Positions 4,835 to 55,446 of a stretch of 64,000 nucleotides of DNA are shown here, one piece after another. The position numbers were made by a program, and so were the translations under genes. Position 1 is the stretch's first letter. Each line of letters begins with the position of its first letter. Origin of the DNA: Fibrobacter sp. UWB10 (GTDB lineage: Bacteria > Fibrobacterota > Fibrobacteria > Fibrobacterales > Fibrobacteraceae); the NCBI RefSeq assembly GCF_900182935.1, contig NZ_FXUE01000005.1:62001-126000 (forward strand), read 5' to 3'. The notes under the pieces were generated by a model that ran no database searches, was not told the DNA's origin, and saw nothing but the letters and a program-made list of their open reading frames with translations.

Positions 4835-4909
4835 TGCCGCATCGAGTGCGGCAAGACAATTTGGGGTCTTAGGGGCGAAGCCCCTAGGCGAGGGGGTAGC
4901 GTAAGACCC
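4835..4909 (+). repeat. Structured palindromic repeat, copy 1 (REP-like)
   Basis: A hairpin TGCCGCA-N5-TGCGGCA (4835-4853) is followed by a two-stem element. The outer stem is GGGTCTTA (4864-4871) with TAAGACCC (4902-4909). The inner stem is GGGGC-GAA-GCCCC (4872-4884), followed by the unpaired block TAGGCGAGGGGGTAG. A second copy on the minus strand at 32457-32500 keeps the block and the pairing with compensatory changes. The rest of the gap 4518-5043 shows no other convincing gene. Confidence 0.6.
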
Positions 4910-5043
4910 GGCGTGCAGGGGCTGCAGCGAGGGGGAATCTTCCCCCATCAAACAAAGGCTTTTCTCTGTACAGTTCATAGGCTTGCGTATTAACATGCCG
5001 CGAATGTATATTCCATGCAGAATCTTTATTTATTGGAGACAGC

Positions 5044-7460: not shown

Positions 7461-8333
7461 CTAGCCCTTCGACAGGGTTAGCAACACAGCGCCCGCGAGA
7501 ATGATGAAGGTCGCCAAGAGCAACTTGATTCGTTCGCGGGCCGTTTTGTATTCGCCGAAAACGAACACACCCCAGCCGAGGTTCACCAACAAGTTCAGCT
7601 GCGTGAGCGGGTAGCCAATGGCATAACCAAGCGCACCGTTCACATCAATAGCCCAGAAGCAGCCGTGCATACCGATCGTCCAGAGCACACCCATCAAAAC
7701 GGTGACAACGCTCGGCACAAGCTTGTATTCGAACATCTTTTTACGGCGAATTTCAAGCACGGCAATCAGCGCCTGGCTGCCGACAAAAATGCCGATGGTA
7801 AACGGGCAAAGGAATTCAACATCGGTCATCGAGAGGCCCGACTGAACAGCAAGCTTATAGGGAATCAGGTACGTACCGAAGGCAAGGCCGCCCAAAAGCG
7901 AGCGCCAATTCCTGAATACGGAGCCACCATGCGACGGCGACAAGCGCGAAAGCCCGATCAAAAAACATGCAATCGCCGGAATCGAGAGGAAGAACTTGGA
8001 CTGTTCACCGAACAGGAGCACGCCTGAAAGGAACGAAGCCAGAATGCTCACGCCCATGGAACGCACGCCAGCGCCCGCAAGGTCAGCCTCGGCTTGCACC
8101 GCCCAAAAACAGAAGGCTCCGCCCACGACCCACATCAGGCCGCAAAACACGCCAATCGGGTGCACATTGAAAGTACCCGTATAGAACGCCACGACAAGCG
8201 CACTCAAAAGCGCGCCCAAGGTCATCATCGAAAGGTATGCCCAGCTAGAATAATTCGGCCATTTTTTAAGGGGTACCATGTAGGAGCCAAACATGAAAAT
8301 GGCAAGCAAAGCACCGATATAACTACTTTCCAA
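7461..8333 (-). CDS. Drug/metabolite-superfamily sugar transporter (GRP/RhaT-like)
   Basis: A 290-residue inner-membrane protein with about ten hydrophobic segments and no large soluble domain. The start MESSYIGALLAIFMFGSYMVPLKKW, the mid-protein FGTYLIPYKLAVQSG and GYAIGYPLTQLNLLVNLGWGVFVFGE resemble the glucose/ribose porter branch of the DMT superfamily, two five-helix repeats each with a PxK/YP-type segment. It probably imports a monosaccharide by proton symport, which fits nearby polysaccharidases. The start is TTG, with GGGG seven bases upstream, inside the last codons of mnmE (11 bp overlap), so the two genes are probably co-translated. Substrate is unknown. Confidence 0.75.
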   Translation of the reverse strand: MESSYIGALLAIFMFGSYMVPLKKWPNYSSWAYLSMMTLGALLSALVVAFYTGTFNVHPIGVFCGLMWVVGGAFCFWAVQAEADLAGAGVRSMGVSILASFLSGVLLFGEQSKFFLSIPAIACFLIGLSRLSPSHGGSVFRNWRSLLGGLAFGTYLIPYKLAVQSGLSMTDVEFLCPFTIGIFVGSQALIAVLEIRRKKMFEYKLVPSVVTVLMGVLWTIGMHGCFWAIDVNGALGYAIGYPLTQLNLLVNLGWGVFVFGEYKTARERIKLLLATFIILAGAVLLTLSKG

Positions 8334-9729
8334 TGCAGAACCCCGCGAAAATAGATTGTAAAATGTCTTCGGACGAAATTTCGCCCGTTATACTCTGGAG
8401 CGCCCTGCGCACAAGTTGCATTTCAAACGCAAGCAATTCCACTGCCGGATTTCTCCGGAGCAAATCGAGCACGCGGTTCACGCCGGCGTAAGCGTCTTCG
8501 AGGCAAGCCTTTTCACGTTCACTGGTAATCCAGAGGTCTTCGGCGTTGTCAGACTTTTTGAACAAGGCGGCATTCATGACGCTCTTGAGTTCGGCAAGGC
8601 CCGCACCCGTTTTCGAAGAAATGCAGAGAGATCCTTCGACACGCTTTGCTTTCCCCAAAGAGGATAACTCAACTTGAGAACTAAAGTTCTTAGTTTCGTA
8701 TAGCTCAGGATGACAAGACGTCAAATCGCTCTTGGAAACGACAATAAAATCAGGTATAATCTCGTCTCTCGTCTGTAGGGCTCCGTCCGTTCTCTCGTCT
8801 GTACCGTCGAGGACTAAAATTTTGAGGTCCGCTTCTTCCAAAATCTCGCGGGACTTTTTCATGCTGAGCGCATCGAGTTCGTCGGTGGCATGCTCTGCAA
8901 TGCCTGCGGTATCGACCAGTCGGACTTCACCGCCATCTAAAAACAGGCGGACTTCGACAAAATCGCGCGTGGTGCCCGGAACATTGCTCACGAGCACACG
9001 GTCTTCGCCGAGGAGCGCATTCACCAAGCTCGACTTGCCCGCATTCGGGGCACCGTAAAGAACGGCCAGCGGGAGCCTGCTCAGATTTGCCTTACCGCGG
9101 AAGCTGTTCAAAATCTGCAGGATTGTCGTGCGGATATTTTCAAACTTTTCTTGCCAGCCGTCATAATCGGGGTCGGCTTCTTCTTCGGCAAAATCCACAT
9201 CGAGCTCGAGACGGGCCGAAATATCTTTCACTTGCGCCGTAAGCGTAGCAATCTTTTTCGAAAGCGCGCCCGAAAGCAGGCGGTGGGCGTTTTCCAGTTC
9301 CGCGCGGTTCGCGCTGTGAATCACGTCGGCCACCGATTCGGCCTGGGTCAAGTCCATTTTGCCATTCAAGAAGGCACGGCGCGTGTATTCGCCAGGTTCA
9401 GCCAGGCGCACGCCCTCGATGCTGCGGATTGCCTGCAGCAAGTCGCGTACAATCAGCGGGTTTCCATGCGGATAAAGTTCCAGCACATCTTCGCCGGTAT
9501 AAGAATTCGGCGATTCAAAATAAATGTACAGAAGGCTATCGAGAACCTTGCCCGATTCCGGGTCGCGGGCAGTACCGAGATTCGCCATACGGGGCACCAG
9601 TCCCTTAACAGCCTTTGTTCCAAACAGGCGTTCCACCACCAAACGCACCTGCGAGCCACTCACGCGGAGGGCTGCCACGGCACTCACGCCAGCTGGCGTC
9701 ATCGGGGCTACAATCGTCTGGGAATCCAT
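8323..9729 (-). CDS. mnmE: tRNA uridine-5-carboxymethylaminomethyl(34) synthesis GTPase MnmE
   Basis: A 468-residue cytoplasmic GTPase that with MnmG modifies U34 of tRNAs. The N-terminal domain (TIVAPMTPAGVSAVAALRVSG) is followed by helical parts surrounding a G domain: G1 GAPNAGKSS near residue 225, VPGTTRD, DTAGI, and SKSD as a variant G4. The C terminus FCIGK carries the catalytic cysteine motif. The loop between SKSD and SSKTG is about 12 residues longer than in the E. coli protein as I recall it, and it encodes a dispersed repeat (8629-8716). A second repeat (8757-8805) sits just before G4. ATG at 9729. The downstream transporter overlaps its end. Confidence 0.95.
   Translation of the reverse strand: MDSQTIVAPMTPAGVSAVAALRVSGSQVRLVVERLFGTKAVKGLVPRMANLGTARDPESGKVLDSLLYIYFESPNSYTGEDVLELYPHGNPLIVRDLLQAIRSIEGVRLAEPGEYTRRAFLNGKMDLTQAESVADVIHSANRAELENAHRLLSGALSKKIATLTAQVKDISARLELDVDFAEEEADPDYDGWQEKFENIRTTILQILNSFRGKANLSRLPLAVLYGAPNAGKSSLVNALLGEDRVLVSNVPGTTRDFVEVRLFLDGGEVRLVDTAGIAEHATDELDALSMKKSREILEEADLKILVLDGTDERTDGALQTRDEIIPDFIVVSKSDLTSCHPELYETKNFSSQVELSSLGKAKRVEGSLCISSKTGAGLAELKSVMNAALFKKSDNAEDLWITSEREKACLEDAYAGVNRVLDLLRRNPAVELLAFEMQLVRRALQSITGEISSEDILQSIFAGFCIGK
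8629..8716 (-). repeat. Dispersed repeat inserted in frame in mnmE (G4-G5 loop)
   Basis: On the minus strand the segment begins TGTCATCCTGAGC and ends GTCGAAGGATCT, with a central palindrome AGAACTTTAGTTCT. The ends match the repeat in the Nudix gene at 55177-55213 (GATTCTTCGAC ... GCTCAGAATGACA, read on plus) apart from C/T changes. It encodes a stretch between the G4 and G5 motifs of MnmE. Confidence 0.65.
8757..8805 (-). repeat. Second dispersed repeat in mnmE, shared with the nth upstream region
   Basis: On the minus strand it reads ACAGACGAGAGAACGG, then a short variable part, then CCTACAGACGAGAGACGAGA. The gap before nth (21602-21645) contains the same two blocks with G/A changes around a GGCGCAAGCGCC hairpin. 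The AGACGAG unit is repeated with period seven. In mnmE it encodes DERTDGALQTRDE in a surface loop before G4. Confidence 0.6.
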
Positions 9730-11053: not shown

Positions 11054-13369
11054 ATGAAATTCACAAAAACGATTCTCGCTTTCGGTCTCGCCGCCGCAGC
11101 AACAGCAAGCGCTGCGCAGTACGAAGCCGAAGACGGCACGGCCACTGATGGCGCCGAAGTCGCCACCGTTTCCGCCGCATCGGGCAGCAAGGTTGTCCAG
11201 CTGAAAAGTGGCAACCTTACGTTTGCACCTGTTTCCGTTGAAAAAGCGGGCCAGTACACGATCGTCATCCATTACATGAACAACTACGGTACTTCCAAAA
11301 TCAACAATGTCGTTGTCGGAAGCACCTCTTCTGCCGTTACATTTGAAGAAACCGAAAAGGGCAAGTTCGCCGACGTTGAAACGGTTATGAATCTTGCCGC
11401 AGGCGAAAACACAATCGCCATTACCAATAGCTGGGGCTGGATCGATGTGGACTACATCGAAGTCAAGGAATACGAAGCAAAGGCATTCACACTTTGCAAC
11501 GCTCCTGTCACCAAGAACGCCACCCCGTCTGCAGTTAAGCTTTACAACTTCTTGGTCAACAACTTTGGCAAGAAGACTATTTCCGGTGTAATGACCGGCA
11601 ACATGGACGCCTACACCAAGGGCGATGCGACCCTGCACGAAGACGTTCAAGCAGTGTATACAGCTGGCGGCAAGTACCCGGCACTCGTCGGCGTCGACCT
11701 GATGAACGCCACCGGCGCTAACAAGGAATCTTCTTGGTTCAAGGAATACACCGAAAAGGCTATTGATATCGCCAAGTCTATTTGGAAAAAAGGCGGCATT
11801 CCGGCTGTCACATGGCACTGGCGCCCGGGCGACGAAGTAGAATTCTACACCGCTAACGGCAACAAGACCAACAATACCGAATTTGACTTCTCCGAAGCAT
11901 TCGTCAAGGGCACCACTACATGGGATACGACTTCCGCCCAGTACAAGGCCATTGTCGGTGACATTGACCTCGTTTCTAACATTTTCCTTGACCTTCAGAA
12001 AGAAGGCGTCGCCGCCATCTTCCGCCCGTTGCACGAATCCGGTGGAAACTGGTTCTGGTGGAGCGTCAATACTGGCAAGCAGTTCGCAGCCCTTTACCAG
12101 TTGGTCTACGAACGCATGGTCTTCAAGAACGGCGTGAACAACCTGATTTGGGACTTTAACCCGAAGGATGCCGCCACAATGTCTTGGACTCCGGGCGAAA
12201 CCTACTATGACGTGTTGAGCATTGACATTTACAACAAGGCAAATGATCACCAGAGCAACAGCGCTGCATTCATTGACCTCACAAACAAGGGCGGCACCAA
12301 CAAGATTATTTCGCTCAGCGAAAACGGCCCGATTCCTGACGTCGACAACATGTACACTGATGGTGCAACATGGAGCTGGTGGATGCCCTGGTACGAATCT
12401 CCGTCTTGGAACGGCGGCTACGTTAGCCAGACTTCTGCCGAAGTGTGGACAAAGAACCTCGCCGACGAACGCATTATCACTCTTGACGAAATGCCGGGTT
12501 GGGAAAACTACGCCGAAGCAACCTCTGCTACGAAGGTTTGCCCGACTGCAAGTGAAAGCGCCAAGTTCGACGCAGACACCTCCAAGAAAGAAGACTACAA
12601 GAACCTGATGATGGCCGTGACCTACAAGGCTTTGAACGACAGTGGTGCAAACATTGAACTTCAAAAGGTTCCCAACCTCACTGGTGCAACGACGGTTTCT
12701 CTCAAGATTACGAATAACGGTTCCGGCGGTGCAGACGGAGGCATCTGGGTTGGTCTCGCCTTTGTCCGCAACGGTATGGAAGACGACGGTTGGACGTGGG
12801 AAATGTCGCCTTCGACCGGCTGCTGGATTAACGACGGCGCATCTTCGACTTGCGAATTTGACATTACCAAGTACGAAGATGATGATAAAGTGGAACACCC
12901 CATGGACCTCGACAAGCTCTTCTCTGTAACGCTGATGGTTGCGGCCGTGGGCTTCGAAGGAACCATAATCTTCGACGAACTCGTCGCCGACAACGGCAAG
13001 GTGATTTCCGCCTTCGACAAGACCTCTGAACTCTTCAAGGCTGCAACGCAGAGCAAGTCCAAGATTGCAAAGATTGAACTTGTCGACGAAACTGGCGCAC
13101 CCGCCGCATTCAAGCCGGTTGTCGCCAAGGCTGGCTCCGCCGCCAAGCTGAGCGTTTCGGGCAAGACCGTTTCTCTCACGACTGCAAAGGCTGGCCTCGT
13201 ATCTGTCGAAGTATTCGGTATGAACGGCAAGCGCGTGGCAACTCTCTACAAGGGCAACCTCGCCGCAGGCACAAGCGCATTCAGCCTCGCCGATATGCCC
13301 AAGGGCCGCTACATTGTGCGCGTCAAGGGCGCAGGCCTTGCCGCCACCCAGCCGGTCTTAATCAAGTAA
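11054..13369 (+). CDS. Secreted GH26 mannanase-like enzyme, copy 1, with CBM35-like and extra module
   Basis: A 771-residue exported enzyme, probably an endo-beta-1,4-mannanase. The order is: signal peptide (1-20, ending ASA); CBM35-like module (QYEAEDGTA...WIDVDYIEVKEYEA, 21-138); GH26 domain (about 155-490) with acid/base E328 in FRPLHESGG and nucleophile E423 in SLSENGP; a beta-sandwich (about 495-650) that may be another carbohydrate-binding module; and a C-terminal sorting-type tail (about 695-771, ending GRYIVRVKGAGLAATQPVLIK). Start ATG has AGGAG. It is the first of three tandem paralogues and the only one with the extra module. GH26 also includes other mannan- and glucan-active enzymes, so the substrate is inferred. 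Confidence 0.9.
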   Translation: MKFTKTILAFGLAAAATASAAQYEAEDGTATDGAEVATVSAASGSKVVQLKSGNLTFAPVSVEKAGQYTIVIHYMNNYGTSKINNVVVGSTSSAVTFEETEKGKFADVETVMNLAAGENTIAITNSWGWIDVDYIEVKEYEAKAFTLCNAPVTKNATPSAVKLYNFLVNNFGKKTISGVMTGNMDAYTKGDATLHEDVQAVYTAGGKYPALVGVDLMNATGANKESSWFKEYTEKAIDIAKSIWKKGGIPAVTWHWRPGDEVEFYTANGNKTNNTEFDFSEAFVKGTTTWDTTSAQYKAIVGDIDLVSNIFLDLQKEGVAAIFRPLHESGGNWFWWSVNTGKQFAALYQLVYERMVFKNGVNNLIWDFNPKDAATMSWTPGETYYDVLSIDIYNKANDHQSNSAAFIDLTNKGGTNKIISLSENGPIPDVDNMYTDGATWSWWMPWYESPSWNGGYVSQTSAEVWTKNLADERIITLDEMPGWENYAEATSATKVCPTASESAKFDADTSKKEDYKNLMMAVTYKALNDSGANIELQKVPNLTGATTVSLKITNNGSGGADGGIWVGLAFVRNGMEDDGWTWEMSPSTGCWINDGASSTCEFDITKYEDDDKVEHPMDLDKLFSVTLMVAAVGFEGTIIFDELVADNGKVISAFDKTSELFKAATQSKSKIAKIELVDETGAPAAFKPVVAKAGSAAKLSVSGKTVSLTTAKAGLVSVEVFGMNGKRVATLYKGNLAAGTSAFSLADMPKGRYIVRVKGAGLAATQPVLIK

Positions 13370-13388
13370 GTTTCTCTTCATGACTCCT

Positions 13389-13430
13389 GAATCCCCGTGG
13401 TTGACGCAAGTTTGCCGCGGGGATTCTTCT
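13389..13430 (+). terminator. Rho-independent terminator after GH26 copy 1
   Basis: GAATCCCCGTGG (13389-13400) pairs over 12 positions with CCGCGGGGATTC (13415-13426). It is followed by the short T-rich stretch TTCTATTT. Confidence 0.75.
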
Positions 13431-13494
13431 ATTTGAACAATGAATTTTCAATTTCGGGGAAAATAATGTATTTTAAAATGGAACCGGAGGTTGT

Positions 13495-15246
13495 ATGAAT
13501 ACCTATCATTTTTTGACCGCAACAGCGCTCGCATTTTCGACCTACTCCATGGCCGCAGCCATTCGCGTTGAAGCCGAATCTGCCGTGCCCGCCGACGACC
13601 ACAAACTTGAAATCACTACAGATGCAAACGCCTCGGGCGGCAAGTATGTGGAAATGGGCGAAGGCGACCTTGCATTCACCGTCAACATGCCTAGCGACGG
13701 CTACTACACGCTGTATGTGAGCTACAAGCTCCCCACCGATCGCGGCAGCAAGACCCAGAATCTGACTTTGAACGGAAGCTCCGCCGGTCAGGTGACCTTC
13801 GGAGTTTCCGATGATTTTAAGGTCCTCAAGGCGGCAGGTAAAATCAAGCTAAAAAAAGGTGAAAACGCAATCGGGATTGTCCATTCCTGGGGATGGGTCG
13901 GCATCGACTACATCGAAATCACCGAATTCGAAGCAACTCCTTGGAACATCAGTCCCAAGCCCGTCACTCCGGAACCTACCGAAAGCGCCCAGAAGCTCTA
14001 CAACTTCTTGTACACGAACTTTGGCAAGAAAGTCATTAGCGGTGTAATGACCGAACGCCCCTTCGAAAACGACGGCAATTACACCCCGCAGGATTTTGAC
14101 ACCCAGACTGAACTCAGCTACATCAACAAGGCTAGCGGCAAGAACGTGGTTCTCGTCGGTTTCGACTTCTTGCATGCCTCCGGCAAGAATTCCGATCAGC
14201 AGTGGTATCAGGGCTACACGCATGCCTCCTTGGAAATGGCAAAGACCGTATGGAAGAAGGGCGGCATTCCGCAATTCAACTGGCATTGGAAAGACCCGAT
14301 GCACAGCGTAGAAGCCTTCTACACTTTCTCTAGCGGAAACGACCCTTACACTGAATTCAGCATCGGCCTTGCCTACGACACCACCACCGGCAAGTGGAAA
14401 ACCGACAGCGACGAATACAAGGCCATTATGCGCGACATGGAAATGATCGCCGATTCGCTGCTCACGCTCCAGAAAGAAGGCGTTGCCGTGCTGTGGCGTC
14501 CGCTTCACGAAGCAAGCGGCAAATGGTTCTGGTGGGGCACCGACGGCGCAAAAGCCTGCGTAGCCCTGTACAAGCTCATGTTCGACACTTTTGTGAACAA
14601 GAAGGGGCTCCATAACCTGATTTGGGTCTGGACAACCGACGAAGCGCCCGATGCACTGGATTGGTATCCCGGCGACGAATACGTAGACGTGGTTGGTCGC
14701 GACTACTATTACTACCCGCGCGAATCGAATCACGCATCGCTCATCAGCTCTTTCGAAAAAGTCAAAGACATGTACGGCGCCAAGAAAATCGTCACACTGT
14801 CTGAAAACGGCTCCGTGCCCTACCCCGACGAAATGAAGGCCGATGGAGCAAACTGGAGTTGGTTCATGCCGTGGTACGGCGACTACGCCATGGAAGGCTG
14901 GGCAAACGATAACAATGCCGAAAGCTGGAAGACCGTCATGAACAACGAATACACCTTGACACTCGAAGACATGCCCGGCTGGGACAAGTACGAAATGCAG
15001 ACGACCATCATCGCCACCTCCAAGAAAGCGGCTCCAGCAATCCAGCTTGTCGGTCGCGATTTGCAGGTGAACCTGAACGCCGGCATGGCCCAGGTTTCGA
15101 TTTACGACCTGCAAGGAATCCGCGTGCTCGCGAAAAAGATGAGCCAAAACGGCACGATTGCGCTTTCTCGCCTCGCCCGCGGACCTTACCTAGTGAAAGT
15201 CCTGGCGAACGGTTTGACACAAAACCACAAAATCACGCTAAAATAA
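13495..15246 (+). CDS. Secreted GH26 mannanase-like enzyme, copy 2
   Basis: A 583-residue paralogue of the preceding gene. It has a signal peptide (about 1-21, ending MAAA), a CBM35-like module (IRVEAESAVPADD...WVGIDYIEITEFEA, about 22-142), and a GH26 domain (about 155-500) with acid/base E339 in WRPLHEASG and nucleophile E437 in TLSENGS. The shorter sorting-type tail is about 515-583 (QLVGRDLQVNLNAGMAQVSIYDLQG...GPYLVKVLANGL). It lacks the second sandwich module of copy 1. The ATG at 13495 follows GGAGG. It has its own terminator, so the three genes can be transcribed separately. Confidence 0.9.
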   Translation: MNTYHFLTATALAFSTYSMAAAIRVEAESAVPADDHKLEITTDANASGGKYVEMGEGDLAFTVNMPSDGYYTLYVSYKLPTDRGSKTQNLTLNGSSAGQVTFGVSDDFKVLKAAGKIKLKKGENAIGIVHSWGWVGIDYIEITEFEATPWNISPKPVTPEPTESAQKLYNFLYTNFGKKVISGVMTERPFENDGNYTPQDFDTQTELSYINKASGKNVVLVGFDFLHASGKNSDQQWYQGYTHASLEMAKTVWKKGGIPQFNWHWKDPMHSVEAFYTFSSGNDPYTEFSIGLAYDTTTGKWKTDSDEYKAIMRDMEMIADSLLTLQKEGVAVLWRPLHEASGKWFWWGTDGAKACVALYKLMFDTFVNKKGLHNLIWVWTTDEAPDALDWYPGDEYVDVVGRDYYYYPRESNHASLISSFEKVKDMYGAKKIVTLSENGSVPYPDEMKADGANWSWFMPWYGDYAMEGWANDNNAESWKTVMNNEYTLTLEDMPGWDKYEMQTTIIATSKKAAPAIQLVGRDLQVNLNAGMAQVSIYDLQGIRVLAKKMSQNGTIALSRLARGPYLVKVLANGLTQNHKITLK

Positions 15247-15280
15247 GCAAATTTCACTAAAAAAAGCCATTCAGGCTATT

Positions 15281-15311
15281 GCGGAAAAGACAACATCTTT
15301 TCCGCTTTTTT
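15281..15311 (+). terminator. Rho-independent terminator after GH26 copy 2
   Basis: GCGGAAAAGA-CAACA-TCTTTTCCGC followed by six T. Confidence 0.9.
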
Positions 15312-15375
15312 GCTTTCAAAATGAAAATCGCGGCCATTCGAAGGTATATTTAAGGCATAAATTAAGGAGTGTTGT

Positions 15376-17238
15376 ATGGGATGTAAATTACTCGCGGCGC
15401 TGTCCGCATTCTCTATGGTGTCTGCTTTTGCAGCCCCCACCATGTACGAAGCCGAAGATTTGCCGGGCGCAAGCGTTGCCGAAGGCGCCGAATTTTCGGG
15501 CGGAAAGTACGCAAAGACCGCAGACCCTAGCGGCATCACGTTCACCGTCAAGGTCGAAGAAACCGCCGTCTACGATATTACCACCAAGGTCCTGATTAAG
15601 CAATACGACTGGACCACCTCTAAAATCGCGGTCAACGGTGTGGATGTAGGCTCCATGCTTACCACCCCGCGCAATTGCGATTCGAGCTACGTGGTTTCGG
15701 CATCGGCCAAAATGAAGGCCGGCGAAAACAAGATTACCGTGGGTAACCAGGCTCTCGGCGTGGACTACATTACCGTCGAACGCCACCCCGACCCGACATT
15801 CAACATCGGAACTGCACCAGTCACGCCGAATGCAAGCGAAAGCGCCAAGAAACTCTACTCCTTCCTGCGCGAAAACTTCGGCAAAAAGACAGTTAGCGGC
15901 ATGATGATTAGCGACCAGAATTTCAACTACGATTACGGCAACATGCGGCTCATTCCGCCTGGTGGCTGCACGCCCGCGGACTCTTGCAAGTTCAGCGACG
16001 AAGAAGTCTCGTGGAAGGGCCAGACCGACATTGCCGAATTCTACAAGCGTAGCGGCCACTACCCCGCTATTGGCGGCTTCGACATGCTCTTTGCCGCCGG
16101 CGGCCACCATGAAGAAGGCTGGTTCAAGGGCTACACCGAAAACAACCTGCTCATGACCGAAGACTTGTGGAACATGGGCGGCATTCCGACTTATACTTGG
16201 CACTGGAAGGTCGGCGAAGACACCGTATTCTACACGCAGGGCACTCCCGCAGGCTTTAACAACCCCGGCTGCACCGAAGGCGTCATGGGCACTTCGAACA
16301 CAAATACCTGCTTTAACTACACCAAGGCTTTCAAGGGCGAACAATGCCAGGAACTTGACGAAACCTCGCAAGAATACAAGGACATCGTCGCCGACGTAGA
16401 CATTGTTTCGGGCTACTTCAAACAGCTCGAAGAAAAGGGAATCGCCGTCGTATGGCGTCCCTTGCACGAAGCGAGCGGAGGCTGGTTCTGGTGGGGTACC
16501 GCTAGCGCCGAATGCTATGTACAGCTGTACCGCCTGGTATTCAATCGCATGGTCAAGACCAACAAGCTCACCAACCTGATTTGGGTCTGGAACATCAATA
16601 CCGACCCGAAATTCGGTTACGACTACAGCGCCCTGAATGCAGCATGGTACCCTGGCGATGAATACGTGGACATCGTGGCAGTCGACATTTACGACCCGCT
16701 GAATGACCACAATTCTGCAGCCAATTACTACAACAAGATTGTGAGCGACGTGGGCACAAGCAAGATGATTGCCTTGAGCGAAAACGGTGCCATTCCGGAC
16801 ATCGACAGCATTGCCGAAGACAAGGCCTATTGGAGCTACTGGATGACTTGGAGCCAGACCTGGAGCGGAAACTTCTTGGAAAAGACTCCTGCCGACATGT
16901 GGAAGCGCAATCTAGATGACGAACGCATTATCGCTCTCGACGACATGCCCGGCTGGGACAAATACATCGCCGAAGTTACCACAAGAGCTTTCAACCGAAT
17001 TCCAAACAAATTAAACATCACGCTGCAAGACAACAACCTGAACATCACCATTCCGCAGGCAGGCCACACAAGCATCGCACTCTTTGACATGCTCGGACAC
17101 AAAGTAGCAAGCCTCGCCAAGGGCAACCTGCCCGCAGGCACCCTGCAATTCAGCCTCGACGGCATCGCCAGCGGCAACTACATCATACGCGCCAAGAACG
17201 GCACCGCAAGCTACGCACAGAGAATTAGGGTGAAGTAG
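15376..17238 (+). CDS. Secreted GH26 mannanase-like enzyme, copy 3
   Basis: A 620-residue third tandem paralogue. It has a signal peptide (about 1-20, ending AFA), a CBM35-like module (MYEAEDLPGASV...LGVDYITVERHP, about 22-138), and a GH26 domain with acid/base E365 in WRPLHEASG and nucleophile E469 in ALSENGA. The tail, about 555-620, contains SIALFDMLGHKVASLAKGNLPAGT. Compared with the other two it has a Cys-containing insertion (PPGGCTPADSCKFSDEE, near residue 200) and a longer loop with NPGCTEG..NTNTCFN near 300. These are candidate extra disulfides, fitting an exported protein. The ATG at 15376 follows AAGGAG. Confidence 0.9.
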   Translation: MGCKLLAALSAFSMVSAFAAPTMYEAEDLPGASVAEGAEFSGGKYAKTADPSGITFTVKVEETAVYDITTKVLIKQYDWTTSKIAVNGVDVGSMLTTPRNCDSSYVVSASAKMKAGENKITVGNQALGVDYITVERHPDPTFNIGTAPVTPNASESAKKLYSFLRENFGKKTVSGMMISDQNFNYDYGNMRLIPPGGCTPADSCKFSDEEVSWKGQTDIAEFYKRSGHYPAIGGFDMLFAAGGHHEEGWFKGYTENNLLMTEDLWNMGGIPTYTWHWKVGEDTVFYTQGTPAGFNNPGCTEGVMGTSNTNTCFNYTKAFKGEQCQELDETSQEYKDIVADVDIVSGYFKQLEEKGIAVVWRPLHEASGGWFWWGTASAECYVQLYRLVFNRMVKTNKLTNLIWVWNINTDPKFGYDYSALNAAWYPGDEYVDIVAVDIYDPLNDHNSAANYYNKIVSDVGTSKMIALSENGAIPDIDSIAEDKAYWSYWMTWSQTWSGNFLEKTPADMWKRNLDDERIIALDDMPGWDKYIAEVTTRAFNRIPNKLNITLQDNNLNITIPQAGHTSIALFDMLGHKVASLAKGNLPAGTLQFSLDGIASGNYIIRAKNGTASYAQRIRVK

Positions 17239-21601: not shown

Positions 21602-21650
21602 TAGACAAAAGAACGGCGCAAGCGCCTACAGACGAAAGACGAGAGATTTT
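21602..21650 (+). repeat. Dispersed repeat between cysE and nth, related to the repeat in mnmE
   Basis: Contains AGACAAAAGAACGG, a GGCGC-AA-GCGCC hairpin, then CTACAGACGAAAGACGAGAG. Both outer blocks recur, in frame, in mnmE at 8757-8805. The units AGACGAA, AGACGAG and AGATTTT have period seven. Confidence 0.65.
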
Positions 21651-32202: not shown

Positions 32203-32700
32203 AGCGTGTAAAATATACTAATTCGGAATTCAAAATTTGGAATTCAATTTTTGCCGTGTGGCAACATTACATTTTTTTTGTTAGAAATAGAGCCGAACGG
32301 TCTGTAAAGGGGTAGGTATCCCCCTGGTGCAAGCCATGGCAATCGCCAAACTATGGCCGCCGCGATGTTTTTACCCGCTCACTACCACGGAAAAACCCAT
32401 GAATCGTTCGCTTGCTAAAAACATTCGCTCTGGCCATCAGCAATTTCAAGCGCCATGTCTTTTACCACCCCCTCGCCTAAGGGCTTTGCCCTTAAAAACC
32501 CATACAAGGCGAATGCCGCAACAATCGTGCTTGCACGAATTCCGAAGCTCTAAACGCGCTATGTCCGCGGGCTTTTCCGACCAGGCGCAAGCGCCGCGCC
32601 GACTACGAGATTTGTAACGAACGAGCCCCGGTCCCCTGAACGTGTTCAGGGCCCGGCTAGCGAGTGAGAGCAAATCTCATAAGGAGGCGCCAGTCCCAAC
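32203..32700. other. Non-coding palindromic block upstream of the sigma factor gene
   Basis: No convincing gene. It contains several small hairpins: the structured repeat copy 2 (32457-32500), CGTGC-TT-GCACG, GGCGC-AA-GCGCC (also seen before nth), and CCCTGAAC-GT-GTTCAGGG (32634-32651) inside a GCC...GGC context. The density of hairpins suggests either decayed palindromic repeats or an unrecognised structured RNA. I found no match to RNase P, tmRNA or SRP motifs by eye. Confidence 0.5.
32457..32500 (-). repeat. Structured palindromic repeat, copy 2 (REP-like)
   Basis: On the minus strand: outer GGTTTTTA, inner AAGGGC-AAA-GCCCTT, the block TAGGCGAGGGGGTGG, then TAAAAGAC. It aligns with copy 1 at 4864-4909. 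Inner-stem G-C pairs are replaced by A-T pairs and the outer stem stays paired with wobble, while the block is conserved. Confidence 0.65.
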
Positions 32701-33860: not shown

Positions 33861-36800
33861 CTACTTCTTATGTTTCTTGCGGCGGACGCCCCACTTGTCC
33901 TTGATTTCTTCGACAATCTTCTTGTCTTCGTAGCGGACAACCATCTTGAACTGCACGGTGTACACGCCCGTTCCAACGAAGCGTCCCTTGTGATCCTTGA
34001 AGTTCCAGTTCACAAAGACCTTCTTGTCGGTTTCAAGGCAGTTACCGCCGAACTTCGGGCTTTCGCAAGGCACCGTGATAATGGTGTCGTTCACGTACTG
34101 GCCCAAGTGATCGAAGTAGTTCACGATGAACGAGATGTACACGTCTTCAGGCTTCAAGGAATCGAGCACAGACGGATCATACGTACCGTCGGCAGACACC
34201 TGGGCACGGTCCAGAAGCTGCGGCACAAAGCGTTCGCCAAGCTGCACCAACTGTCCAAGAGCGCCTTCCTTTTCCATGTCTTCCTTGGTCGTAGAACCCG
34301 GCACATAGCGCAGGTTCACAGAGCTTACCGTCTGCAAGGTATAAGACTTGCCATCGGAATCTTCCTTCGGGGTATCGTCATTGACATCGAAGGTGCCCAT
34401 CTGCGTGGCTTCAACCAAGTGGTTCAGGAGACCACCGATAATGACTGCCTGCGGATTTTCACCGGCAACATTCTTGTAGTTATCCTTGATGGCATCCTTT
34501 GCGCCCTTGCGGACAACAATGGAGTCACCCGGCATAATCGTTCCGTCGCTGCCGTTAAACACGAGCTTGGCAGAAAGACCATCCGAAGACCAATCGATTC
34601 TCGACGGATTCAGTTCGATCACTTCTTCACCATGGATGTAAGAGAAGTAATCAGATCCCTTAAGATCCTTCGTAAGAATCGGTTCCGAGAACACAACTAC
34701 GAGCGTATCGGCCTTCTTGCCGTAGTCAAGAGTAGCGGTCGATACCACAGGAGCCATCTTGTCGACCAGCGGAGCAGCGCCTTCGTTCACGAAGGTTTCG
34801 CCAAAGATCTTGTAGTAGGTATACACATTTGCCTGCGGCAAGTCTTCAGAGATATTCGTTACACCGCTAGCCAAGCGAGTCGTCGATATAACATCCCAAA
34901 TCACGCGAGTCGAATCCTTCGGGTCGAGCTTCAAGTTTTCAGGCTGAGCCTGCAACTGAATCATCATACCGCGATAGCTGTACCACGGGAACGACATATA
35001 CAGAGAACCGTCAATGTCTTCAGCAGTCAGCTTCTTGTCGAACACCGTGACAATCTGATCCAAGACGCCGTCGCCATCGGTATCCCAGTATTCCACATTC
35101 TTTGCCTGCGGAAGCCTGTCGACCACGGTGACCGGCACTTCGCGGTCATATTCGTCAGAAGTAATGTACGGCAAGGTCGTGAAAGTTGCACCCGGATGCA
35201 GCGACACGCTGTCCTTATTATCGCCCTTCAGCTTGAAGTTCTTTCCGACCAGAATCACGATATCCTTGGCAGGCATGTAGACCTTCTTAATCTGATCCAC
35301 ATCGAAGCCATAACGCTTAGCATCCTGCTTGATCATCACCAACATTTCAGGCATGCTGACGTCTGTCGGGAACAGGTCGATATTGTACTGCAAGAACAGC
35401 GAATCGAGGCCATTCACGTTACGGATTGCGTAGGCATCCTTAATGACGTTGCTACCGACTTCAACAATAGCAGATTCGCGGACGTAAGTCGCACCCGAAC
35501 CAAGTTCGTCACCGTAAGAAACAAGTGCCTTAGCATCCTTCGGGAATTCACCTGCAGGCGGGAGCACCAAGCTAGACACATCAACCAGAATGCGATCACG
35601 TGCAGCATTGAACTTCGGATCCACGCAATCAAGCGTATCCTTGCCAATCACCAACTTCACGCCATCCAGGTAGTAGTTGTTCGACAGAGTGTCTTCCAAC
35701 AGGATTTCTACATAGTCCAGAGCCTTGTCGCCATCGGTATCCTTGATGTAACCCATGCGAGTATCCGGAATCGGATCGTAGAAGTTGATGTTGTCGATAA
35801 TCACCATCTGGCTGCCACCATACACCTTGATCGAACCGCCCTGAACCACCTTGTCGGCGGTTACGAAGATCGTGACAGAACCATCAGGATGAACCACCAA
35901 GGCTTCATTCTTGGAGCCATCCGTCGGGTCAACCAGGCGGACATCCGTCTTCGAGACGAAGCGGAGCGAATCCGGAGAATCAAAGTATTTCTTGACCTTG
36001 TCTGCATCAAGCGTAATGGCAACAATTTCGCCCACCTTGGCAGAATCCTTGCCAGAATTATAATGCAGATCCATTTCAGTGCCTTCAGGATCATTCGTCA
36101 ACTTATAGTAGTTTCCGTTGACAAAGACCACGCTCGGATCATTCGGATCCGGATCGGTCGGGCTGAGCACAACCGTCTTCGAAACGAGCGAGTCACCCTT
36201 TTCAAAGTCATCAGCAGACGGGTATTCGTCGAAGCCGGAACCCGGATCTTCTTCGTAATCTTCAGCACCGAAATACTGTCCTCTCGAAGAACTGGATTCA
36301 CCTTCATCTTCGCCAGTTCCAATAGATCTGCTCGAAGAAGACTTGTCACCCTGATCTTCACCATTACCGTTTCCGCTGCTCGAAGAGCCATTGCTGTTGC
36401 TGGAACCGTCGTTACCAGAGCTGTTGCCGTTTCCGCCACTGCTGCTGGAGCCATCGTTACCAGAGCTATTGCCATTTCCGCCGCTAGAGCTGGAGCCGTC
36501 ATTGCCACTGCTGTTGCCGTTTCCGCCGCTAGAGCTGGAGCCGTCATTACCAGAGCTATTGCCGTTACCACCGCTAGAGCTAGAGCCATCGTTACCACTG
36601 CTGTTACCGTTTCCGCCACTAGAGCTAGAACCGTTACCACCAGAGCTCAAGTTAGTACCGCTGCTAGAGCTACCGTTGTTGCCGGAGCTATTACCCGTGC
36701 CCGAGCTGCTAGACTTTGCGCTGCTAGAAGATTCGTGGTATTCGATCAGCGAAGAGCTGCTCTGCGAGTCGCTAGACAAAAGATCTTCGTCATCACCCGA

Positions 36801-54876: not shown

Positions 54877-55446
54877 ATGAAACCCTGGAAACTATTGGAT
54901 TCAGAATACCTCGTAAACGCTCCTTGGCTAAAAGTGGCCAAAGAAACCTGCGAATTGCCCAATGGAAAGGTTATTGACGACTTTTATACGCTTTGGCAGC
55001 CAGACTGGGTCCTAATTCTTGCCCGAACCACCGAAGGCAAATGGGTGATGACGGAGCAATACCGCCATGGAACCGGCAAAATCGCCCTTGAATTCCCGGC
55101 CGGGATTATTGACAAGGGTGAAACACCGGAACAGGCGGCCCTCCGAGAACTGCAGGAAGAATGTGGATACGGTTTAGATTCTTCGACTCCGCTTCGTTCC
55201 GCTCAGAATGACACAACCAGTTACCTCGGTAAATTTCCGGTAAACCCGGACAGGCACCGCGGCATTTTCCACGTGGTTTTTATTGACGGGGTTGTCAAAA
55301 CAGGCGCAACGCATTTCGACAGCACCGAAGACATTGAAAGTCTTTTGCTAAGCGACGAAGAACTGCGGGCCAAAATGGCTGACGGCACATTCAATCACCC
55401 GCTCCAAATGGCGGGGTATTTGCGTTTTCTACTTAACCGCGGGTGA
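54877..55446 (+). CDS. Nudix hydrolase, ADP-ribose pyrophosphatase type, with in-frame repeat
   Basis: A 189-residue cytoplasmic hydrolase of nucleoside-diphosphate-linked compounds. The Nudix box GIIDKGETPEQAALRELQEECGY fits G-x5-E-x7-REUxEExGU completely (shown here by position, residues about 77-99). Directly after the box the frame runs through a dispersed repeat (55177-55213) encoding DSSTPLRSAQNDT before returning to SYLGKFPVNPDRHRG. The ATG at 54877 (MKPWKLLDSEYL) is chosen; the open frame upstream is antisense to the cyclase gene. Its last 14 bp overlap the convergent barrel-like gene. Confidence 0.88.
   Translation: MKPWKLLDSEYLVNAPWLKVAKETCELPNGKVIDDFYTLWQPDWVLILARTTEGKWVMTEQYRHGTGKIALEFPAGIIDKGETPEQAALRELQEECGYGLDSSTPLRSAQNDTTSYLGKFPVNPDRHRGIFHVVFIDGVVKTGATHFDSTEDIESLLLSDEELRAKMADGTFNHPLQMAGYLRFLLNRG
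55177..55213 (+). repeat. Dispersed repeat inserted in frame in the Nudix gene
   Basis: Begins GATTCTTCGAC, contains a CGCTTCG/CGTTCCG core, and ends GCTCAGAATGACA. Read on the other strand it starts TGTCATTCTGAGC, matching the start of the mnmE repeat (TGTCATCCTGAGC). Confidence 0.7.

Follow-up and report, generated by a model that had tools for sequence, protein, structure and literature searches.

The mnmE gene and its inserted loops

The window analysed here, a stretch of 64,000 nucleotides of Fibrobacter sp. UWB10 (genome G000; 3.48 Mb in 10 contigs), a member of a genus of gut and rumen bacteria, carries on its minus strand a gene for MnmE (mnmE, also trmE; 8323-9729, 468 amino acids), with the Pfam domains TrmE_N, MnmE_helical and MMR_HSR1 and a match to NCBIfam TIGR00450 above cut-off. 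In a structure search, the AlphaFold2 model of the protein matched solved MnmE structures with a Z of about 30, which confirms the MnmE fold only. The G4 motif, SKSD, was located by translation and alignment at residues 332-335 (8725-8736, minus strand), where K333 and D335 are invariant. This motif lies between two hypervariable slots, loop 1 (residues 309-326; 8752-8805, minus strand) and loop 2 (residues 337-370; 8620-8721, minus strand). The lowest-confidence part of the model (residues 347-364, pLDDT under 50) falls within loop 2, which is predicted to be disordered. No RNA family of Rfam matched mnmE up to E = 1.

The first-pass annotation of this DNA had proposed that two different dispersed repeats are inserted in frame in the GTPase domain of MnmE, in loops near G4. 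This description was borne out, and the inserts had been placed correctly, in the two loops that flank SKSD; a third element, called C below, had been missed and must be added to it.

Repeat A lies in loop 2, running from TGTCATCCTGAGC to GTCGAAGGATC (8630-8715, minus strand), and is split by element C into two parts, 8703-8715 and 8630-8651. Its general form is GTCATYCTGAGC-core-GTCGAAGRATC, mostly with a T before it, and 21 exact matches to this pattern were found in the host genome, while the reversed control pattern gave none. The repeat is present in 40 of 41 genomes of the genus, with 3 to 68 copies per genome. The copy counts given here for the repeats are lower bounds, as they derive from pattern searches. 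Among 20 copies, 19 distinct cores were observed, most of which form small hairpins; the longest stem averages 3.65 bp (2.37 in shuffles), and the Y and R positions at the inner base covary (17 C-G and 3 T-A pairs). Most copies have a further stem inside, of 2-8 bp, that is specific to the copy. The proposal that this insert shares its ends with a repeat in a Nudix hydrolase gene (54878-55446) also proved correct, as the ends of A match an element at 55177-55213 (plus strand), which lies there in frame and in reverse orientation and is spanned by PF00293. This Nudix element is common to G000 and the same-species genome G060, and it is absent in G003, G009 and G036. As a separate observation, the Nudix gene of G029 (L175, G029:C11) carries a pair of oppositely oriented A elements, each of them in frame, where G000 has one.

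Repeat B lies in loop 1 (8760-8800, minus strand) and consists of GACGAGAGAAC, the hairpin GGACGGAGCCC and TACAGACGAGAGACGAGA; in the same-species genome the hairpin has a perfect counterpart, GGGCGGAGCCC. The general form of the repeat is GACGAGAGAAC-hairpin-TACAGACGAGAGACGARA, with conserved arms and a hairpin that varies by copy. A search of the host genome that allowed up to one mismatch gave 29 matches, against zero for the reversed control. Since the genome contains 21 and 29 matches to A and B and none to their reversed controls, neither repeat can be attributed to chance. As the first-pass annotation had suggested, the second MnmE insert shares two blocks with the region upstream of nth; both belong to an intergenic B element, GACAAAAGAAC-GGCGCAAGCGCC-TACAGACGAAAGACGAGAGA (21604-21647, plus strand). 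Another B element, with its own hairpin (CCGCGTAGCGG), was noticed just downstream of the single IS200-type transposase of the genome (L109, around 2039, G000:C2).

Element C, nested within A in loop 2 (TATACGAAACTAAGAACTTTAGTTCTCAAGTTGAGTTATCCTCTTTGGGGA; 8652-8702, minus strand), is a palindrome, mostly of 51 bp, with the form TATACGAAACT-stem-CTTTAG-stem-TTAGTTGAGTTATCCTCTNTGNGGA and dispersed copies. Consequently, loop 2 of the G000 protein is a composite, in which A is interrupted by 51 bp of C. By contrast, the mnmE gene of G060 carries A alone, so that the two genomes of the same species differ at this site by a clean 51-nt segment and a few further substitutions. When the 95-bp MnmE insert was used as a query, matches were obtained in 34 of 41 genomes of the genus, and many of these covered C only. 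Joining the flanks of other C copies restores an intact A in L188, L199, L201, L202, L206, L217 and others, an intact B in L182, L183 and L220, and a perfect hairpin, GGACGCC-GTA-GGCGTCC, in L185; no target-site duplication was seen on joining these flanks. Some of these copies were collected with a query that contained A, which inflates the proportion of C copies found within A. When the host genome was searched with a pattern for C only, four of the clearly delimited copies were inside A or B and another inside a hairpin.

The same DNA in other genes and other frames

The A::C composite of MnmE recurs in the ahbB gene of G060, in frame and with 94% identical DNA, and is absent from ahbB of G000. 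(This gene is assigned to siroheme decarboxylase beta by its best NCBIfam match, which is below cut-off, and has the Pfam domain AsnC_trans_reg2.) The frames differ, as the composite reads SVILSYTKLRTSVLKLSYPLRGEQSESMDP in ahbB of G060 and CHPELYETKNFSSQVELSSLGKAKRVEGS in MnmE of G000, and this is the strongest single case of the same DNA encoding different peptides.

Repeat A alone is also found in frame in diverse genes of the host genome. For instance, it encodes CHPERSANGVEGS in TrpC-TrpF, CHPEQSEAKSKDL in HemC, SVILSGARSAKSKN in UvrB, RVILSETPNGVESKN in an RlmL-like methyltransferase, DPSTAQQRCSAQDDT in HrpB, DPSASPLWASLRMT in an arginase-family protein and DSSTPLRSAQNDT in the Nudix protein. 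One frame yields CHPE.. peptides (TrpF, HemC and MnmE), another VILS.. peptides (UvrB and RlmL), and the reversed element reads DPST..AQDDT (HrpB, the arginase-like protein and Nudix). Because A is read in a total of three frames, depending on the protein, it is the DNA, rather than the peptide, that is conserved. The same genome has in-frame copies of B in RlmL, TopB, UvrA and a CbiX-NAD-binding fusion. Altogether, eleven genes of the host genome were examined, ten with Pfam calls plus mnmE, all unrelated conserved genes with in-frame inserts; judged by sequence, at least ten housekeeping enzymes besides MnmE carry repeat-derived in-frame loops. The search of the genome for both repeats and their in-frame copies, which the earlier annotation had recommended, gave 21 copies of A and 29 of B, and copies of A, B or both lie in frame in these eleven genes. 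The situation is similar in a second species (G004): among the 20 A sites sampled there, one is in TilS, one is in a CobA-HemD fusion, and a third is close to the beginning of a deaminase gene (probably TadA).

Not every difference between species has the appearance of a simple insertion. Clean A insertion sites were sought in HemC and TrpF and were not found, as the flanks have diverged and, for TrpF, no matching empty site was available; several between-species differences, including these, are not clean insertions. Additionally, on one flank of the insert, HemC of G000 is diverged relative to its own species, which points to a probable exchange of alleles, and G029 and G036 have one HemC loop in common.

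MnmE loops across the genus

A survey of 36 MnmE sequences from 35 genomes of the genus, together with 14 outgroup sequences, indicated that both loops vary widely. Loop 1 has 11-76 residues and loop 2 has 11-101 in the genus, with a median of 18 each, compared with 11-32 and 11-20 residues, respectively, in the outgroups. The reading frame is open over both loops in all 36 genus sequences, in agreement with the proposal that the inserts lengthen the loops without breaking the frame. For this reason, an insert that is not translated, through bypass or as an intron, was considered and appears unlikely.

Repeat DNA occurs in loop 1 in 19 of the 36 genus sequences and in one or both loops in 25, whereas same-sized windows drawn 200 times from the rest of the same mnmE genes gave a mean of 3.9 and a maximum of 9. 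The family patterns were written after the loops had been seen, so this contrast with the control windows is informative but not blind. At least six families are represented, and the loops contain A, B, C and GTCATTGCGAGC..GAAGCAATC elements, together with GTCATTCTCGCG-type arrays and AATTAACAAT-type, GAATTCGGAATTC-type and GAACCTCGAACCTC-type repeats. The same two loops are thus filled by different repeats in different species, and in two near relatives, G003 and G029, they are short and repeat-free. The longest loop 1, of 76 residues, was noticed in L081 (G032:C15) and contains tandem RHSREGEL-type units of a GTCATTCTCGCG-type array.

Origin and spread of the inserts

Our preferred interpretation, to which we assign a probability of roughly 0.88, is that the segments are small, dispersed, palindromic REP/MITE-like DNA copies inserted in frame in two flexible surface loops of MnmE. 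The repeats are dispersed and independent of frame, close relatives differ in whether a given site is filled, one element is nested in another, the same slots are reused, and a 51-bp difference exists within one species. The repeats look mobile, as is supported by their presence or absence between genomes. In the mechanism that we propose, the elements would be copied in a manner akin to transposition, with no target duplication, and copies that shift the frame, create stops or fall in structured parts of the protein would be purged by selection, so that in-frame copies in flexible loops remain. Once tolerant, a loop might become a landing site for more insertions, for recombination between repeat copies and for exchange between strains. 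The peptides encoded by the inserts are probably neutral spacers.

It had also been suggested that such repeats tolerate or prefer in-frame sites in essential genes. Tolerance agrees well with the many conserved genes affected, their open frames and the polymorphism within one species. By contrast, preference finds no support, as only 7 of the 21 exact A copies lie inside recognisable genes, although a bacterial genome is mostly coding. Survival in tolerant loops is therefore the simpler reading.

One alternative to mobile DNA is that the loops are simply variable parts of the protein, of an ordinary kind, and resemble repeats by accident. Although loop 1 also varies in the outgroups, this explanation seems extremely improbable, as it has to contend with the same DNA read in three frames in different proteins, with intergenic copies and with repeat matches in far more MnmE sequences than the control windows would predict; the comparison of frames and the 51-bp polymorphism within one species refute it. 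The earlier annotation had reasoned that ordinary loops would be indicated if all MnmE homologues in the phylum carried the same residues with diverged DNA, but presence and absence were found to differ between relatives. Retention of the inserted loops as something useful, for instance as a varying interaction surface or because the mRNA hairpin sets translation pausing, might account for the reuse of the same slots across the genus with every frame open. We nevertheless regard it as improbable, given that neither the peptide nor the frame, the length or the element family is conserved and that G003 and G029 manage with short loops free of repeats.

Loop change could instead be due mainly to exchange between repeat copies or related strains, by homologous recombination or gene conversion, with little or no current transposition, and the one-sided divergence of HemC in G000, the HemC loop common to G029 and G036 and the A::C composites with shared ends in several genomes are all compatible with it. 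However, C is found in A elements with differing inner stems, in B and in unrelated hairpins, and joining its flanks restores an intact host repeat; therefore, insertion of C itself is indicated, and we consider that recombination is a possible but minority explanation. Mobilisation by a host-encoded Y1 transposase, of the IS200 or REP-associated type, is an unlikely alternative on present evidence, even though palindromes without target duplication would fit single-strand transposition and G000 does encode one such enzyme. Matches to PF01797 (Y1 transposase) were found in only 12 of 41 genomes of the genus and are absent from complete genomes with 27-68 copies of A. The single Y1 of G000 scores as IS200, below the cut-off for REP transposases, and none of the 12 Y1 loci examined has A at both ends. 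A resident RAYT was consequently rejected as the mobiliser. At one locus (L111), an A half-site lies inside or beside a broken Y1 copy.

Beyond the insertion of palindromic elements in tolerant loops, which we favour, a more speculative possibility, which we find rather doubtful, is that Fibrobacter harbours a hierarchy of single-strand-type palindromic elements. Driven by a putative mobiliser, C would target other repeats at their hairpin loops (GC^GNAG), and protein loops would serve as standing exchange slots that lead to rapid length variation in conserved enzymes.

Relation to known repeats

The earlier annotation had likened the inserts to the palindromic elements of Rickettsia genes (RPEs). 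These comprise several palindromic families inserted in frame in unrelated housekeeping genes, whose proteins tolerate them, and they are about 150 bp long with a conserved encoded peptide (PMC10969869, PMC3733652). The likeness holds for behaviour, as dispersed palindromic families are likewise found here in frame in unrelated housekeeping genes, but not for membership, since the Fibrobacter elements are shorter (about 31-90 bp), conserve neither peptide nor frame, and, unlike RPEs, refill the MnmE loops with different families in different species.

The closest known relatives of repeat A are the CGTC-tagged REPs, in which the unpaired tag is often TGTC and is followed by a stem of 8-9 bp that starts with AT and a loop of 4-5 nt, without a known dedicated transposase (Di Nocera et al. 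2013, PMC3733652). Repeat A starts with (T)GTCATYC and ends with RRATC, and thus also shows a tag and then a stem starting with AT, although in most copies a single stem of 8-9 bp is replaced by an inner hairpin that differs from copy to copy; a few short forms approach the REP layout. REPs have also been described inside genes, including uvrA and uvrB, in a text that does not mention Fibrobacter (PMC3733652).

GTAG-tagged REPs, which go with RAYT transposases, resemble our elements in being short palindromes dispersed in one genome singly or as inverted pairs, but A, B and C lack the GTAG tag and no REP-associated transposase scored above cut-off in G000. MITEs are mobile elements that are small, non-coding and devoid of a transposase gene; our elements are likewise small and lack a transposase gene of their own, but no target-site duplication was seen for C and no parent element with the same ends was found. 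No description of these repeats in Fibrobacter was found in the open-licence literature. Several features set the elements apart from known REPs and RPEs: the core varies by copy, no peptide is conserved, C is nested in other repeats, and many families occupy the same loops within one genus.

These results extend to Fibrobacter the in-frame invasion of housekeeping proteins by repeats, known mainly from Rickettsia and some REP-rich bacteria. In one enzyme, at least six unrelated repeat families have entered the same two loops across a single genus, and two genomes of one species differ there by 51 bp. Natural insertions have in effect scanned a conserved GTPase, and the system is a tractable one for studying how elements move without a known transposase. 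In addition, alignments of housekeeping genes from Fibrobacter can be distorted by loops of repeat origin.

Other repeats in the window and elsewhere

Another dispersed palindromic repeat (GGGGTCTTAGGGGCGAAGCCCCTAGGCGAGGGGGTAG..) occurs in the window at 4862-4913 and 32451-32502 as an inverted pair, 79% complementary. A tandem array at 36354-36713, with a unit of 45 bp and a spacing of exactly 45 in six registers, probably codes for a protein repeat. Three adjacent related genes at 11054-17238, which look like mannanase-type glycoside hydrolases with C-terminal sorting tails, have blocks of 60-80% DNA identity in common. Finally, eight GTCATTGCGAGCGAAGCGAAGCAATC units with an exact spacing of 45 bp were noticed in another genome of the set (G023:C4:3274-3614).
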